DNA from: Bacteroidetes bacterium RIFCSPLOWO2_12_FULL_35_15
GTDB lineage: Bacteria > Bacteroidota > Bacteroidia > 2-12-FULL-35-15
Reading direction: 5' to 3'
NCBI GenBank assembly: GCA_001769385.1
Contig: MEPB01000004.1
Location: 1 to 54,825 of the forward strand
Length of the DNA: 54,825 nt
Part shown: positions 2,583 to 10,355 of the stretch, piece after piece
Position numbering within the stretch: the first letter of the stretch is position 1
Layout: each line of letters begins with the position of its first letter
Made by a program: the position numbers and the translations under genes
Notes under the pieces: generated by a model
Told to the model about the DNA's origin: nothing
The model's database searches: none
The model's input: the letters and a program-made list of their open reading frames with translations, nothing else

Positions 2583-5500
2583 TTATTTAGTAATAATTAC
2601 TTTACATGTTTTAGTTGTTGTTCCATCTATTGTAATAGCAAGATAATACAAGCCCTGATTCAACATAAGTTCAGAAATATCATATTTTAATTCCACTTTT
2701 CCAATTCCCGATTTCTTATCAGCAATCACTTTGATCAATTCTCCTGTTATTGAATAAAGATCAATTTTTACTTGCTTTTCACTTACATTATTAAATACAA
2801 TACTTAATTGATCGCTTAACGGATTTGGATAAACGGTGTATTCATTGCTGGAATTATTTTCTTTAATACCTACTGTAATACCGGAGTTTTGTGCAAACTC
2901 AGAAGTATTGCCTTGTAAATCAGTTGCCGTAGCAGTTACCATATCACTTGTAGTTATGCCTGTACAGTTAAAATTCCAGTTCCCTGAACCATCTGCAACA
3001 ATTGTGTTTCCAAGATAAGCAGTAGCATCACCATGATTAAACATGTTTGTCCCGTTAGATTTAAAAAGCTCAACAGTAATTCCTGTCGGACCTCCATACG
3101 ATGCACAATCAATAGTTCCGCTTATAGTTGTAATTCCTGTTTGCCAATCTAAAAAAACATTTTGTATAAGGGGATAATTCATTCGTTCGTTAGAACCATT
3201 ATCGCTATCGGTAGCATCGTTGTTATTAACTCCCCAGGGGTAAAGATCAATTCCCATCATTCCATTTCCATAAATTTGATTTGCAGAAATAGTATTGAAA
3301 ACAGTTCCTGTATCTGCAATAGCAATACCTACTGTATCATTATGCGCTATAATATTCTCTTTATATAAAGCTCCAATCTTATTGTATTTAGAAGCTTTTG
3401 AAATGATTATTCCGGCTCCTTTGTTAGGTAGCGCAGAGCTGCCATCTGCAGCAACACCTATCTTATTGCTGTAAATAGTATTGCTATCGCTTTGTTCATA
3501 AATAATAATTCCAAGATAGTTGTTTCCACTGATTACATTGTTTTCTATATTGTTGGCTGTTGGCTTGGTAGCGATACCAACGCCAATATAATTTGGTAAT
3601 GCAAGCGTTCCGGTAATGTCGGTCCCGATATAATTTCCTTTAATGTCATTATAAGAGGTAAACACATCTGCGATTTCGATTCCATCAAAACGGTTTCCCG
3701 AAATAATATTTCTATCTGCGGCTGTTGTTCCTCCAATGGTATTGTATTTTGTTCCTCCGCCCAATATCACACCAATCTGATTTGGAACTGTATCTGTACC
3801 TGCTGCATTGGTTCCTATTTTATTTCCTGTCAGTACATTGTAATTCGTACCCGTTGTAACAATAAATAATCCGTAAGCACGGTTGCCCGAGAGCACATTG
3901 TTAATGATGGGATTATGATTGGAACCTCCATCCATACAAATACCGGTTGCATTTGGCATTGCCGTATTACCGGTTGCATCCACGCCAATGTAATTTCCGA
4001 TGGTGGCATTGTAGGAAGAGTTCCCATAATAATCATGACCATACACTCTGTTTCCGGAGATCACATTTCCTTCACCAGCTCCATATCCACCGGCAGTATT
4101 GTATTTTGCATTGGAATTAAAATACAGACCATTGGCCTGAATGAGTGTATCATTTGATAATTTCATTGCATTTAATCCCGTAACATCTGGTCCGATATAA
4201 TTTCCTTTTACAACATTACTATCTGATGATTCAATACATAAAGCCATTTCAATATTCCCGGAAAGAATATTACGTTCACCGGGAGTTGAGCCTCCAACAG
4301 TATTTTTATTGGCATTGCTCTTAATGTAAATTCCGGTATGATTACTTAATATTTGTGTTCCCTGATAATCAGTTCCAATTTTATTTCCAATGATCGTATT
4401 TAATCTCGTTCCTGTATAAACCAGTACAACTCCTGCTAATTTATTTCCCGAGATCAGATTGCCCTCACCGGAAATACTTCCGCCAATAGTATTTGATGAC
4501 GCACCACTCAATAAAATTCCATTTGCATTCGGGATGGAATCCGTTCCTGAAACATTTGTTCCAATATAGTTTCCTTTGATGATCATGTTTCTTGAGTTCG
4601 AACCTAAAATAGAAATTCCTGCATCTGAATTTCCCGAAATGATATTTCTTTCTGCAGCAGTTGAACCACCAATAGTGTTATTGTAGGAATCATTTATAGC
4701 GATGCCGTAATAATTTGCAATGGTGTCGGTTCTTGCTATTCCATTTACATTGATACCGATATAATTTCCTTTAATACTATTATCATGGGAAATATTTGTA
4801 TTAATGGCAACTCCGGCATATGCATTTCCAGAAATTATATTTCTTTGCAGAGATGTATTTCCGCCAACTGTATTATTTGTTGACGAATCTATTGCAATAC
4901 CATAATAATTAGCTATCGCAAACATTCCTGTTCTATCACATCCTATTTTATTGCCCTGGATAACATTATAATTTGATTTTCTTACGCCAATTCCTGAAGT
5001 TGTATTTCCTGAAATAACATTGTCTTTTATTGTATTATTAGCCACATCACCATACAATGCAATACCAATATCATTTGCGATCGCAGTGCTGCCTGAACAA
5101 TCTACCCCGATATAACAGGAGGAAACAGTACAGGTTCCGCTAGGATAAGTACCATATTTAGTCAGGATAATTCCATACTGAAATCCATTTATGACCAAAC
5201 CTTTGGCAATACCACCCGAAAAAGGAAAACACAAGGCATAGGTCAGGTTAGTTGTGCTTTTAATGCAGATCTCCGGTCCATTTGGATTTGTATTTCCGGC
5301 TTGTGTGCTACCATCAATGGAAACGGAAAGGCTATTAACTGTAGGTAACACAGTTGATAAGGTAATTGTAAAAACACCTGTAGCAACACTATAATTTGGG
5401 TCCGTTGTTGGAATATTAAATACTATATTATCGGCATCAGCCGGATTCGCATTTGCCGAAGTAATTGCCTGACGCAATGATCCTGCACCGGCATCCGATG

Positions 5501-5597
5501 TGTTGATTACCGTAAAAGTAGCGCCATGTATCTCAATTGATGCTAGAGAAATAATACAGAAAATAAAAATTTGCAAAGCAAGAGTTCTTGATTTCAT
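2583..5597 (-). CDS. T9SS-secreted parallel beta-helix repeat protein, longer paralogue
   Basis: About 1004 residues from the ATG at 5597. An upstream in-frame ATG at 5630 would add 11 residues before an otherwise normal signal peptide (MKSRTL, hydrophobic core, IEIHGA), so 5597 is preferred. The mature protein opens with TVINTSDAGAGSLRQAI. It then carries roughly a dozen 60-70-residue repeats built on KGNYIGTD, NTIGG and AERNIISGN, consistent with a long right-handed beta-helix. An Ig-like segment near 840-910 precedes a T9SS type A sorting domain (VYPNPLSDQ to the terminal VIITK). Compared with the 686-residue neighbour, the difference is mainly in repeat number. Probably a surface adhesin or matrix protein; the function is inferred from architecture only. 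Confidence 0.85.
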   Translation of the reverse strand: MKSRTLALQIFIFCIISLASIEIHGATFTVINTSDAGAGSLRQAITSANANPADADNIVFNIPTTDPNYSVATGVFTITLSTVLPTVNSLSVSIDGSTQAGNTNPNGPEICIKSTTNLTYALCFPFSGGIAKGLVINGFQYGIILTKYGTYPSGTCTVSSCYIGVDCSGSTAIANDIGIALYGDVANNTIKDNVISGNTTSGIGVRKSNYNVIQGNKIGCDRTGMFAIANYYGIAIDSSTNNTVGGNTSLQRNIISGNAYAGVAINTNISHDNSIKGNYIGINVNGIARTDTIANYYGIAINDSYNNTIGGSTAAERNIISGNSDAGISILGSNSRNMIIKGNYIGTNVSGTDSIPNANGILLSGASSNTIGGSISGEGNLISGNKLAGVVLVYTGTRLNTIIGNKIGTDYQGTQILSNHTGIYIKSNANKNTVGGSTPGERNILSGNIEMALCIESSDSNVVKGNYIGPDVTGLNAMKLSNDTLIQANGLYFNSNAKYNTAGGYGAGEGNVISGNRVYGHDYYGNSSYNATIGNYIGVDATGNTAMPNATGICMDGGSNHNPIINNVLSGNRAYGLFIVTTGTNYNVLTGNKIGTNAAGTDTVPNQIGVILGGGTKYNTIGGTTAADRNIISGNRFDGIEIADVFTSYNDIKGNYIGTDITGTLALPNYIGVGIATKPTANNIENNVISGNNYLGIIIYEQSDSNTIYSNKIGVAADGSSALPNKGAGIIISKASKYNKIGALYKENIIAHNDTVGIAIADTGTVFNTISANQIYGNGMMGIDLYPWGVNNNDATDSDNGSNERMNYPLIQNVFLDWQTGITTISGTIDCASYGGPTGITVELFKSNGTNMFNHGDATAYLGNTIVADGSGNWNFNCTGITTSDMVTATATDLQGNTSEFAQNSGITVGIKENNSSNEYTVYPNPLSDQLSIVFNNVSEKQVKIDLYSITGELIKVIADKKSGIGKVELKYDISELMLNQGLYYLAITIDGTTTKTCKVIITK

Positions 5598-6058
5598 TGG
5601 TAGGAATTTTTTATACAAGCAAATATACAAAACTTGATAATTAGAGCTAATTAATTAAGTTTTATCAAAAAGACTGCTAATTCAGCTTATTGAAAGCAAA
5701 ATAAAAAGCCCGGAAATTTCAATCAAGAGTGCCGGCCAACTGTCTGTCGCTGTTTTTTTAACTGTTTTCTTAATTTTTTTCTAATTAATAGTCTTTATAT
5801 ATTTAAAATACATCCGAATGTTTACACAGAGATTAGAGTTAAAAATGCTTCCACACAATTTTCGACAAGCTCGAAATGACCACGCGCGCAATCATTTCGA
5901 GCTTGTCGAGAATTGCGGTTGGTCGTGTTAACGAATTAATTTATATAAAGTCCAATGGAATCTTATTTTTGTTTGATTAGATTTTCAAATTAACAGGGTG
6001 ATTACTTCTTCATTATTCGTAAATTCGCTAAAATTTTTCGTCAACTATAAATCTATAT
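5598..6058. other. Intergenic gap with one palindrome
   Basis: This 461-base gap separates the divergent beta-helix and lgt-like genes. Apart from the inverted repeat at 5856-5915 it is AT-rich and holds no convincing gene. Promoters for both flanking genes should lie here, but no clear TAnnTTTG box with a matching TTG element was found. Confidence 0.6.
5856..5915. repeat. Dispersed palindrome of the TTCGACAAGCTCGAAATGA family
   Basis: Arms 5856-5879 and 5892-5915 pair at 23 of 24 positions around a 12-base loop rich in CG. Related sequences occur at 14524-14565, 19022-19090 and 51053-51119. This is an intergenic repeat family of unknown role. It lacks a T tract, so it is not a standard intrinsic terminator. 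Confidence 0.75.
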
Positions 6059-8435: not shown

Positions 8436-8443
8436 TATATTTG
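8436..8443 (+). promoter_or_regulatory. Bacteroidota -7 promoter box
   Basis: TATATTTG matches the TAnnTTTG box. The predicted transcript would start near 8447, about 60 bases before the ATG, so the conserved leader would be transcribed. A TTG at 8420-8422 lies only 13 bases upstream, shorter than the usual 17-23, so the -33 element is not convincing. Confidence 0.5.
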
Positions 8444-8456
8444 TTATCAACATAAC

Positions 8457-8506
8457 AGGACAGCCGAAAACCTATGAAAAGAGGCATTAAATAAAAACAG
8501 GAAACA
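8457..8506 (+). promoter_or_regulatory. Conserved 5' leader, copy 1
   Basis: This 50-base stretch recurs at 8953-9002 with a single difference, at 8489. Both copies contain a six-codon reading frame (MKRGIK, stop; MKRGIQ, stop) that ends 12 bases before the main ATG. The coding regions that follow have diverged more than the leader has. A role in translation control is inferred, not shown. Confidence 0.55.
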
Positions 8507-8926
8507 ATGAAAAAACTCACACTTAGTATTACGATGATCATGATGCTATTATTTAGCGTATCAACGATTCAGGCACAAGAACTTAGAAATGGTTCAGGTA
8601 GCAGTACCGGAAAAATTGATTCAGATGGAACTATCAGAAATGGCTCAGGAAGCAGCGTTGGAAAAATTGATTCGGATGGTACAGTAAGAAATGGCTCAGG
8701 AAGCAGTATTGGAAAAATTGATTCGGACGGAACAATCAGAAACGGATCAGGAAGCAGCATTGGAAAAGTTGATTCTGATGGAACAGTAAGAAACAGTTCA
8801 GGAAGCAGTATTGGAAAAATTGATTCTGATGGAACAGTTAGAAATGCTTCAGGAAGCAGTATCGGAAGCGCGAATGGCGTTTCAAAAGGTGCAGCAGCTG
8901 TTGTGTTTTTCTTCTTTTCTTTTTAG
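8507..8926 (+). CDS. Secreted 17-residue-repeat protein, copy 1
   Basis: 139 residues. Residues 1-24 are a signal peptide (MKKLTLSITM, hydrophobic core, IQAQ). From residue 27, five full 17-residue units of the form RNGSGSSIGKIDSDGT(I/V) follow, with a sixth that breaks off into ANGVSKG. The protein ends in a very hydrophobic, aromatic tail (AAAVVFFFFSF) directly before the stop. Such regular, polar repeats suggest a closed beta structure in the periplasm or outside the cell. Repeats of this kind may belong to what is called the 5-fold beta-flower family in Bacteroidota, but I am not certain of that match. It is the first of a tandem pair whose starts are 496 bases apart. Function unknown. 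Confidence 0.8.
   Translation: MKKLTLSITMIMMLLFSVSTIQAQELRNGSGSSTGKIDSDGTIRNGSGSSVGKIDSDGTVRNGSGSSIGKIDSDGTIRNGSGSSIGKVDSDGTVRNSSGSSIGKIDSDGTVRNASGSSIGSANGVSKGAAAVVFFFFSF
8585..8866 (+). repeat. 51-base coding repeats, copy 1
   Basis: Five complete 51-base units plus a partial one encode the 17-residue repeats of the first secreted protein. Units differ mostly at third codon positions, so selection on the protein rather than recent slippage appears to keep the period. Confidence 0.85.
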
Positions 8927-8952
8927 CAGAAAAAAATTTTAACACAAAAAAA

Positions 8953-9002
8953 AGGACAGCCGAAAACCTATGAAAAGAGGCATTCAATAAAAACAGGAAA
9001 CA
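8953..9002 (+). promoter_or_regulatory. Conserved 5' leader, copy 2
   Basis: Copy of the leader at 8457-8506 with one base changed; the change keeps the small frame open (MKRGIQ, stop). Only 26 bases separate it from the stop of copy 1, and they hold no promoter box. The second gene is therefore probably read from the same transcript. Confidence 0.55.
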
Positions 9003-9422
9003 ATGAAAAAACTATCACTTAGTATTACCATGATTATGATGCTTTTATTTAGCTTATCTACTATGCAGGCACAAGAACTCAGAAACAGTTCAGGAAACAG
9101 CACAGGAAAAATTGATTCGGATGGAACCATCAGAAATGGTTCAGGCAATAGTGTTGGGAAAGTTGATTCGGGTGGAACGGTTAGAAATAGCTCCGGTAAC
9201 AGCATTGGCAAAATTGATTCGGATGGTACGATCAGAAATGGTTCAGGAAACAGTATTGGAAAAGTTGATTCTGATGGAACTGTACGTAACAGTTCCGGGA
9301 ACAGCATAGGAAAGATCGATTCTGACGGTACAGTTCGTAACAGTTCCGGAAATAGTATCGGAAGTGCAAAAGGAGTATCAAAAGGAGCAGCAGCTGTTGT
9401 GTTTTTCTTCTTTTCGTTCTAA
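9003..9422 (+). CDS. Secreted 17-residue-repeat protein, copy 2
   Basis: 139 residues, the same length and layout as copy 1: signal peptide to MQAQ, five full 17-residue units plus a partial one, and the identical hydrophobic end AAAVVFFFFSF. The units here read RNSSGNSIGKIDSDGT, with asparagine replacing serine in most SGxS positions, so the two proteins differ systematically. One unit has DSGGT in place of DSDGT. The signal peptide and repeats have diverged at silent and non-silent sites, so the duplication is not recent. A strong terminator follows. Function unknown. Confidence 0.8.
   Translation: MKKLSLSITMIMMLLFSLSTMQAQELRNSSGNSTGKIDSDGTIRNGSGNSVGKVDSGGTVRNSSGNSIGKIDSDGTIRNGSGNSIGKVDSDGTVRNSSGNSIGKIDSDGTVRNSSGNSIGSAKGVSKGAAAVVFFFFSF
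9081..9362 (+). repeat. 51-base coding repeats, copy 2
   Basis: Five full 51-base units and one partial unit, matching in register those at 8585-8866. They encode the RNSSGNSIGKIDSDGT type repeats. Confidence 0.85.
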
Positions 9423-9468: not shown

Positions 9469-9509
9469 AAAACAAAAACCTCACAGCAGCGCTGTGAGGT
9501 TTTTGTTTT
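9469..9509. terminator. Strong bidirectional terminator
   Basis: A 19-bp perfect stem closes a 3-base loop (CTCACAGC-AGC-GCTGTGAG core), flanked by A and T tracts on both sides. It can end the repeat-protein transcript on the plus strand and the fabI transcript on the minus strand. Confidence 0.9.
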
Positions 9510-9536
9510 ATATAAAAAGATCGTTAATTATTTTTT

Positions 9537-10355
9537 TTATTTACCCTTTCCAATTTTTTCTATTACTTCAGCACTTGCTCCTGTTGAAGAATAACCTCCA
9601 TCATGAAATAAATTCTGCATAGTTACCATTTTTGTAAGATCAGAAAATAAAGTAATACAATAGTCGGCACAAGATTCAGCACTTGCATTACCAAGCGGTG
9701 AAACAGAATCAGCAAAATCATATAGATCACTAAATCCTTTTATTCCATTTCCAGCGGTCGTTTTTGTAGGCGATTGAGAAATTGTATTAACACGCACATT
9801 CCTGTGTTTCCCATAGTAATAACCAAAACTACGCGTGATAGACTCTAACAATGCTTTAATATCTGCCATATCGGTATAGAACGGATAGGTTCGTTGAGCT
9901 GCAATGAAAGATAGCGCCACCACACTTCCCCATTCACTGATTGCATCAAGTTTATACGCTACACTTAACATTTTATGTAATGAATAAGCTGATACATCAA
10001 TCCCTTTTGTATAGTATTCATAATCCAATTCAGGATACGGGACATTTTTACGAATATTTACACTCATTCCAATTGAGTGCAAAACAAAATCAATTTTACC
10101 TCCTAATATTTCTTGTGACTGTGTAAACAAATTGGTGATATCATCAACATTGGTAGCATCCGCAGGAATAATTTTTGAATTTGTTTTTTTTGCCAATTCA
10201 TTGATTTCCCCCATTCGCATTGCTATGGGAGCATTGGTTAATACAAATATTGCACCTTCTTCATGTGCTTTTTCAGCCACTTTCCATGCGATCGAATTTT
10301 CATCTAAAGCTCCGCTTATTATTCCTCTTTTTCCTTTTAATAAATTGTATGCCAT
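9537..10355 (-). CDS. fabI: Enoyl-[acyl-carrier-protein] reductase (NADH), FabI type
   Basis: 272 residues, normal for FabI. It reduces trans-2-enoyl-ACP in the last step of each fatty-acid elongation round, in the cytoplasm. It is an SDR-fold enzyme with a nucleotide-binding stretch GALDENSIAW at 15-24, HSIG at 93-96 and the catalytic Y160-x6-K167. Where E. coli FabI has Tyr146 this protein has Phe150, as does InhA of mycobacteria, so activity should be retained. It is last in the minus-strand run bamD-rpoZ-coaBC-porD-recN-fabI. A TATATTTG box at 10392-10399 suggests it also has its own promoter. Confidence 0.93.
   Translation of the reverse strand: MAYNLLKGKRGIISGALDENSIAWKVAEKAHEEGAIFVLTNAPIAMRMGEINELAKKTNSKIIPADATNVDDITNLFTQSQEILGGKIDFVLHSIGMSVNIRKNVPYPELDYEYYTKGIDVSAYSLHKMLSVAYKLDAISEWGSVVALSFIAAQRTYPFYTDMADIKALLESITRSFGYYYGKHRNVRVNTISQSPTKTTAGNGIKGFSDLYDFADSVSPLGNASAESCADYCITLFSDLTKMVTMQNLFHDGGYSSTGASAEVIEKIGKGK

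Follow-up and report, generated by a model that had tools for sequence, protein, structure and literature searches.

Each of the two tandem beta-flower genes of Bacteroidetes bacterium RIFCSPLOWO2_12_FULL_35_15 is preceded by a leader that is, on balance, probably a cis-acting pseudoknot related to the DUF805b RNA, acting on translation initiation of the gene behind it. The stretch of DNA analyzed (hereafter the window) comprises 54,825 nt, positions 1 to 54,825 of contig MEPB01000004.1 in assembly GCA_001769385.1. The original prediction had noted two repeat-protein genes 496 bases apart, start to start, whose leaders appeared to be better conserved than their coding regions. It had proposed selection on the leader, for instance as an RNA structure or a tiny upstream frame, with gene conversion as an alternative. 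The distance is exactly as predicted (starts at 8507 and 9003, with 139 codons in each gene), and both gene products match the Pfam family Bflower_2 (PF21785, 5-fold beta-flower; Table 1).

Element B starts 26 nt past the stop codon of gene A, and no promoter box was seen between the two. Ahead of copy A there is an octamer fitting TAnnTTTG, which we take to be the consensus of the Bacteroidota -7 box, though no -33 box with good spacing was seen for it. The inverted repeat beyond gene B is probably a two-way terminator shared with the opposite-strand gene, which is presumably FabI-like; the gene names Lgt and RecN are likewise presumptive. The window additionally encodes, at 2583-5630 on the minus strand, a 1015-aa protein with many NVISGN-like repeats.

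Table 1. Features of the tandem beta-flower locus, in window coordinates
Feature	Coordinates	Strand	Remarks
Putative Bacteroidota -7 box TATATTTG, ahead of copy A	8436..8443	+	fits TAnnTTTG
Predicted pseudoknot element, copy A	8457..8485	+	S1 8457-8459/8471-8473 AGG/CCU; S2 8463-8465/8483-8485 GCC/GGC
Frame MKRGIK, copy A	8474..8494	+	judged fortuitous; ATG in third loop
Linker, copy A	8486..8506	+	A-rich, 21 nt, from element to start codon; read from the sequence
Gene A, beta-flower protein	8507..8926	+	signal peptide and repeats, 139 aa; PF21785 E 2.4e-33
Predicted pseudoknot element, copy B	8953..8981	+	S1 8953-8955/8967-8969; S2 8959-8961/8979-8981 (copy A + 496)
Frame MKRGIQ, copy B	8970..8990	+	judged fortuitous
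Linker, copy B	8982..9002	+	21 nt; read from the sequence
Gene B, beta-flower protein	9003..9422	+	139 aa, signal peptide; PF21785 E 1.5e-31
Inverted repeat with flanking A and T runs	9478..9510	.	self-complementary match; between gene B and opposite-strand gene 9537-10355; probable shared terminator

The element is a predicted 29-nt H-type pseudoknot with a first loop ACA, a GAAAA loop (8466-8470 in copy A) and a third loop AUGAAAAGA, which in both window copies is followed by GGC and then by 21 nt up to the AUG; the pseudoknot helix S2 (GCC/GGC) is present in both leaders. With plain RNA folding, neither leader forms a significant nested structure (z -0.41 and -0.35), as is to be expected because the folding program cannot form pseudoknots. 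On an alignment of 76 elements (A3, hand-picked from 97 distinct sequences) 88.4% of the cells of S1 and S2 are paired, as against 64.9% in shuffles, and covariation reaches 0.644 against 0.206; none of 500 shuffles was as high in either measure, and sliding the helix partners destroys both the pairing and the covariation signal. The alignment A4 (55 sequences) lacks the ten beta-flower rows and 11 more, most of which have a 3-nt first loop misplaced by MAFFT and the dropping of which raises the paired share; here pairing amounts to 92.2% and covariation to 0.722 against 0.202. The shuffles, which themselves ignore kinship among the elements, are not clearly surpassed in two of the five covariation measures; further pair types were matched by 233 of 500 shuffles in A3 and 148 of 500 in A4, and pairs changed on both sides by 85 of 500 in A4. 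The parser used to delineate the elements was biased towards pairing in S2 and could not handle 4 of the 105 places; hence S2 was also read by coordinates alone, using a model that, per the matched part of its alignment, treats the S2 positions as unpaired. The full 3-bp helix was thereby recovered in 76 of 103 places in the genus (33.6 in shuffles, maximum 45) and was complete in 27 of 30 places across the phylum (14.3, maximum 22). The GAAAA loop is nearly invariant, as is a GAGUA stretch outside the variant found in the window, and the leader of the beta-flower gene L160 carries a compensatory S2, GCU/AGC. The covariance analysis for which the original prediction had called is thus in agreement with its suggestion of a conserved RNA structure: both helices, including the pseudoknot one, covary across relatives.

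The DUF805b RNA family is said to have been defined by Weinberg (2017, in NAR), and to our knowledge no function or ligand has been ascribed to it; we also know of no earlier link between this RNA and beta-flower genes. The open-licence literature searched yielded no paper naming DUF805b and no title on this RNA, which does not imply its absence from print, and the main text of PMC9723704 contains neither 'DUF805' nor 'pseudoknot'. The Rfam model RF02914 matches both leaders at the same place, with 12.3 bits for copy A (8456-8483) and 14.3 bits for copy B (8951-8979), short of its gathering score of 35.6 bits. In a genome-wide search these matches have E values of 3.55 and 0.743, which is chance level by score, and sub-threshold matches at E up to 10 occur in all 14 control genomes. 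Because the scores in the window are at chance level, it is position and orthology that support the link to DUF805b: the gathering score is exceeded by two leaders of beta-flower orthologs (38.3 bits in G017:C51 and 37.0 bits in G009:C124), and RF02914 is found above it in 20 of 36 genomes of the genus. The window copies have the S1 hairpin enclosing a loop with CCGAAAA (AGG/CCU around ACAGCCGAAAA) and lie, as expected for this family, in sense orientation shortly before coding starts of a member of Bacteroidota, in both cases at 21 nt. The GAGUA before the last block, present in 97 of 99 other parsed places, is absent from them (AUGAAAAGA-GGC). Judged by their sequence, the window leaders are a divergent variant of the orphan motif DUF805b and not a plain member, because they miss the gathering score and lack the GAGUA block. 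The pseudoknot helix S2 was found in the present work, and the Rfam annotation of RF02914 may or may not include it. Our own model R1, trained on the window leaders, the beta-flower leaders that it later found and other elements of the same genome, scores copy A at 24.3 bits (8454-8486) and copy B at 27.9 bits (8950-8982), both being part of its training set. With model R2, built on the A4 sequences and free of beta-flower leaders, leader B is the best match in the window (16.9 bits, E 0.0038) and leader A the third (12.6 bits, E 0.074). Other Rfam matches at loose thresholds look like chance or a terminator hairpin.

The placement of the element with respect to the start codon was examined in 105 places, namely the top-scoring matches of the genus search, lower-scoring ones of the genome under study and the window pair; these are not a random sample, and a few places of similar score were omitted. 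In 81 of them the AUG of an ORF of at least 40 codons lies 16-25 nt after the element, against 5.9 for random positions (maximum 13) and 4.4 for locally shifted ones (maximum 10). Where a start is found within 60 nt (93 places) the median distance is 21 nt with quartiles of 19-23, and across the phylum 27 of 30 places have a start at 17-25 nt. Of 104 places, 26 have a TAnnTTTG box in the 100 nt upstream of the element, as opposed to 6.3 in shuffles, and the distance from box to element varies from 3 to 86 nt (sd 23 over the 26 places). An ORF of at least 60 codons ends within 80 nt upstream of the element in 18 of 71 places. On contig G025:C132 (L095, 3600-8900; L037) five DUF805b-like elements follow one another, all pointing the same way. 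Three of them have a start at the usual distance, a fourth is 98 nt from its start and another lies where the contig ends; the arrangement offers a natural test case for action gene by gene. A run of five Ts, as in a terminator, occurs within 30 nt in only 1 of 105 places, and in 82 places, under nested folding, pairing of the linker and AUG with the element does not exceed that obtained with shuffled elements. The linkers are rich in A (62.5%), with A at -3 in 87% of 78 places. The fixed spacing in itself establishes a link to the start codon, not altered translation; combined with the variable distance to the box, the copies between genes and the lack of a terminator or of pairing with the start in these places, it points to translation initiation as the likeliest level of action.

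Searches of related genomes, likewise proposed at the outset, recovered the element in front of proteins unrelated to each other, as would be expected of a regulatory element. In the genome under study R1 has 11 matches at E up to 1, several of them in its training set, and in eight of these an ORF starts 16-29 nt on; the exceptions are C8 (71 nt), C50 (62 nt) and C97, where the element has no gene of its own and is followed by an antisense frame that we take, by its look, to be an IstB-type transposase helper. At L065 (about 1501-1535) an element without a gene behind it is followed by an antisense frame resembling IstB by eye, and perhaps an insertion cut off the gene. In the phylum-wide search 76 of 395 genomes have a match exceeding the cut-off and 93 have one at E up to 1e-6, at which level none of the 14 controls has any. 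The 96 proteins encoded behind the genus elements match 38 Pfam families (25 are shown), the commonest being T9SS sorting tails with 10 proteins and Bflower_2 with 6, two of them from the window; others include a TM2 protein, DUF1761 and a rhodopsin. Ten phylum proteins that were scanned include rhodopsin, DUF2589, DUF6345 and, once, DUF805 itself. By a crude rule, signal-peptide-like starts are enriched behind the element (54 of 69, vs 23 of 70 among the remaining ORFs of these loci). Bacteriorhodopsin-like genes are present in 60 of 295 genomes of the class, and in 10 of the 30 loci examined (L328, L329, L331, L340, L342, L347, L350, L351, L352 and L356), which belong to five Bacteroidota families, the element precedes the start by 16-21 nt. 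Certain small genes behind the element (L235, L245, L247 and L261) code for proteins of 54-78 aa without a Pfam match, three of which have a GG motif resembling that of double-glycine leader peptides. A gene at L260 is preceded by two elements in a row; the one farther from it, about 145 nt ahead of the main element, has no obvious ORF of its own.

Of 80 named beta-flower loci, 8 have an element ahead of the gene according to R1 (L200, L175, L167, L170, L162, L160, L155 and L166); as all eight are in its training set, the evidence here is the position and not the score. Before the remaining 72 genes, one of which (L177) has no upstream DNA, R1 finds no element, and hence the element comes and goes in this family and the gene can do without it. 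L159 has, by eye, a similar arrangement that R1 did not find.

The element is also found on predicted viral contigs. Two exact patterns returned 64 matches in 62 stretches of IMG/VR; since the patterns fix S2 and the loops, only S1 and the spacing are independent observations in this set. S1 is formed in 59 of 64 matches against 6.2 expected (maximum 14), and 42 of 64 have an ORF start 17-26 nt further on, with 4.7 expected (maximum 10). RF02914 exceeds its gathering score in 16 of 18 hand-chosen viral loci. As these contigs are predictions, some may be host DNA, and a number of the genes resemble those of host lipoproteins. Others are akin to phage genes, such as those for annotated ssDNA-binding proteins (L313) and HNH homing endonucleases (L270), and relatives of the gene at L275 occur in 102 phage records, of which 68 belong to Flavobacterium phages. 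No DUF805b at gathering level was found in the stretches of Flavobacterium phage elemoE_10-3D, Polaribacter phage P12002L and Flavobacterium phage FCV-1. In elemoE_10-3D, a cultured phage, R1 gives a match that is weak (19.1 bits, E 0.025), with an S1 of only 2-3 bp by eye; the match ends 21 nt ahead of an annotated gene homologous to the one behind the element of L275. Protein searches with the viral proteins of L281 and L267 recovered no named phage. Two of the viral contigs with DUF805b also carry ribozymes over the gathering score, a Hammerhead (type I) at 5899-5969 of L272 and a Pistol at 3487-3546 of L287.

The figures given at the outset for the two window copies stand. There is a single difference between the 50-base leaders (8457-8506 and 8953-9002), against 9 among the 72 bases of the signal-peptide codons (about one in eight). 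The coding regions, with many silent differences in the repeats, differ at 70 of 417 bases, with 50 codons changed silently and 15 by replacement. Divergence in leader and coding region differs significantly (Fisher p = 0.003; p = 0.046 against the signal peptide only), the in-register identity starts at the first base of the leader, and the flanks outside leader and gene are unrelated, with 31 of 50 bases different before and 29 of 50 after. A syntenic single-copy gene of a sister species (L155), with the same neighbors, offers a comparison: both leaders differ from that of L155 at 11 of 50 aligned columns, two of them gaps, and the coding distances are of similar size throughout (of 417 bases, A-B 70, A-L155 75 and B-L155 63; leader/coding contrast p = 0.005). 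Given this divergence of the sister leader, gene conversion, raised in the original prediction as an alternative, is the likelier cause of the near-identity of A and B, which most likely stems from conversion or copying of the leader inside this genome, atop a structural constraint. Slow evolution of the leader is accordingly not upheld as evidence of selection. At the level of raw identity the leader indeed diverges like the coding region: when ten beta-flower leaders, L159 not among them, are compared in all 45 pairs, mean identity (from a MAFFT alignment, the sequences being very short) is 0.73 for the element and 0.75 for the coding sequence, as compared with 0.50 for third positions and 0.46 for the linker, and with the A/B pair left out the element is the more similar in 14 of 44 pairs. 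As read from these alignments, it is the structure and not the letters that is kept in the beta-flower leaders. Thus, selection on the leader is borne out by covariation in relatives and not by the resemblance of A to B. That homogenization by gene conversion might be the whole explanation, with the leader devoid of function, gains from the L155 comparison and from a protein tree in which B groups with L155 and L166 and not with A (100/98). Third positions are equidistant for L155 (22, 21 and 23) and place A nearer than B to L166 (31 sites common to A and L166, 14 to B and L166). As silent sites do not bear out the order in the protein tree, we are unsure of the age of the duplication and of the order of duplication and split. 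Homogenization leaves unexplained a covarying element before unrelated genes across the phylum, and conservation outside the duplication, the absence of which was to count against the original prediction, is evident; as the sole cause it is refuted and retains very little probability.

Among explanations that grant the element a function, a small-molecule riboswitch, in which a ligand of a pseudoknot aptamer alters ribosome access to the start region, is unlikely, albeit the strongest of the rivals. Known pseudoknot riboswitches share invariant loops and variable helices, and the compact fold, nearly invariant unpaired loops and many copies per genome seen here would suit one. However, no expression platform is seen, given the scarcity of terminators and the shuffle-level pairing of linker and AUG, and the genes concerned are diverse, with the commonest family accounting for just 10 of the 96 proteins and no common pathway apparent. 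An element for RNA processing or mRNA stability, shielding the 5' end or marking a cleavage site, would likewise be structured and located both in 5' leaders and between cistrons, but the constant distance to the AUG and the variable one to the promoter-like box are not expected of an end-protecting hairpin, making this a distinctly poor candidate. The enrichment of such boxes upstream is what a DNA-level operator or promoter part would predict; we reject this option as highly improbable, as the spacing follows the AUG and not the promoter, base pairs show compensatory changes, and the element keeps a sense orientation and occurs between genes. Least credible of all is regulation by the six-codon upstream frame. 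As originally described, MKRGIK or MKRGIQ followed by a stop is present in both window copies and ends 12 bases before the main start, but it is absent from all nine other beta-flower leaders, two of which have other upstream ATGs within 56 nt (MKQ-stop and a 29-codon overlapping frame) and seven none, and its ATG lies in the variable loop. A leader-peptide attenuator fails the same test of a conserved frame (0 of 9).

The preferred reading, a pseudoknot acting on initiation for the single gene downstream, would be compatible with the fact that initiation in Bacteroidota does not rely on Shine-Dalgarno pairing. The folded element would border the 30S-covered stretch on its upstream side and might offer a docking or recognition surface to the ribosome platform or to an RNA-binding factor. 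As the folded body would lie just outside the ribosome footprint, docking or recognition would fit better than occlusion. A stimulating or state-dependent enhancing role is our first choice, with both the positive sign and the partner being conjectural. As each tandem copy has its own element, gene B could be governed separately within a shared transcript. More speculatively, and with appreciably less confidence, the DUF805b pseudoknot might constitute a transferable initiation module that recruits or gates ribosomes gene by gene and has been taken over by phages, with the window pair as a sub-type with an altered third loop. If so, an element at the upstream edge of the 30S subunit would work also between genes and without Shine-Dalgarno pairing, and one signal would link secreted proteins, rhodopsins and phage genes. 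Owing to the fixed distance to the AUG, the copies between genes and the use on viral contigs, an orphan motif named after one neighboring gene now comes with a testable hypothesis of translation tuning in Bacteroidota.

In comparison with known systems, the window copies share with the DUF805b RNA (RF02914, clan CL00115, Cis-reg) the S1 hairpin, the long CCGAAAA loop and the location in sense leaders of Bacteroidota, and differ from it in their 3-bp S1, an 11-nt loop, AUGAAAAGA in place of a stretch ending in GAGUA, and scores of 12-14 instead of 35.6 bits. The preQ1-I, SAM-II and SAM-V riboswitches (for SAM-V see PMC6061858) also have a small H-type pseudoknot in the leader; the present element differs from them in its sequence, its five-nucleotide GAAAA loop between the 5' strand of S2 and the 3' strand of S1, and the absence of a sequestered start region and of a common pathway in the genes surveyed. 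Initiation in Flavobacterium johnsoniae, according to PMC6847099, is favored by low pairing from -20 to +20 and by A at -3, -6, -12 and -13. The linkers described here resemble these Kozak-like signals in being A-rich, with A at -3 and -12/-13. The signals of F. johnsoniae are single bases within -20, whereas the present element, which ends at -22 and hence outside the -20 to +20 stretch, would add a folded structure beyond -21.
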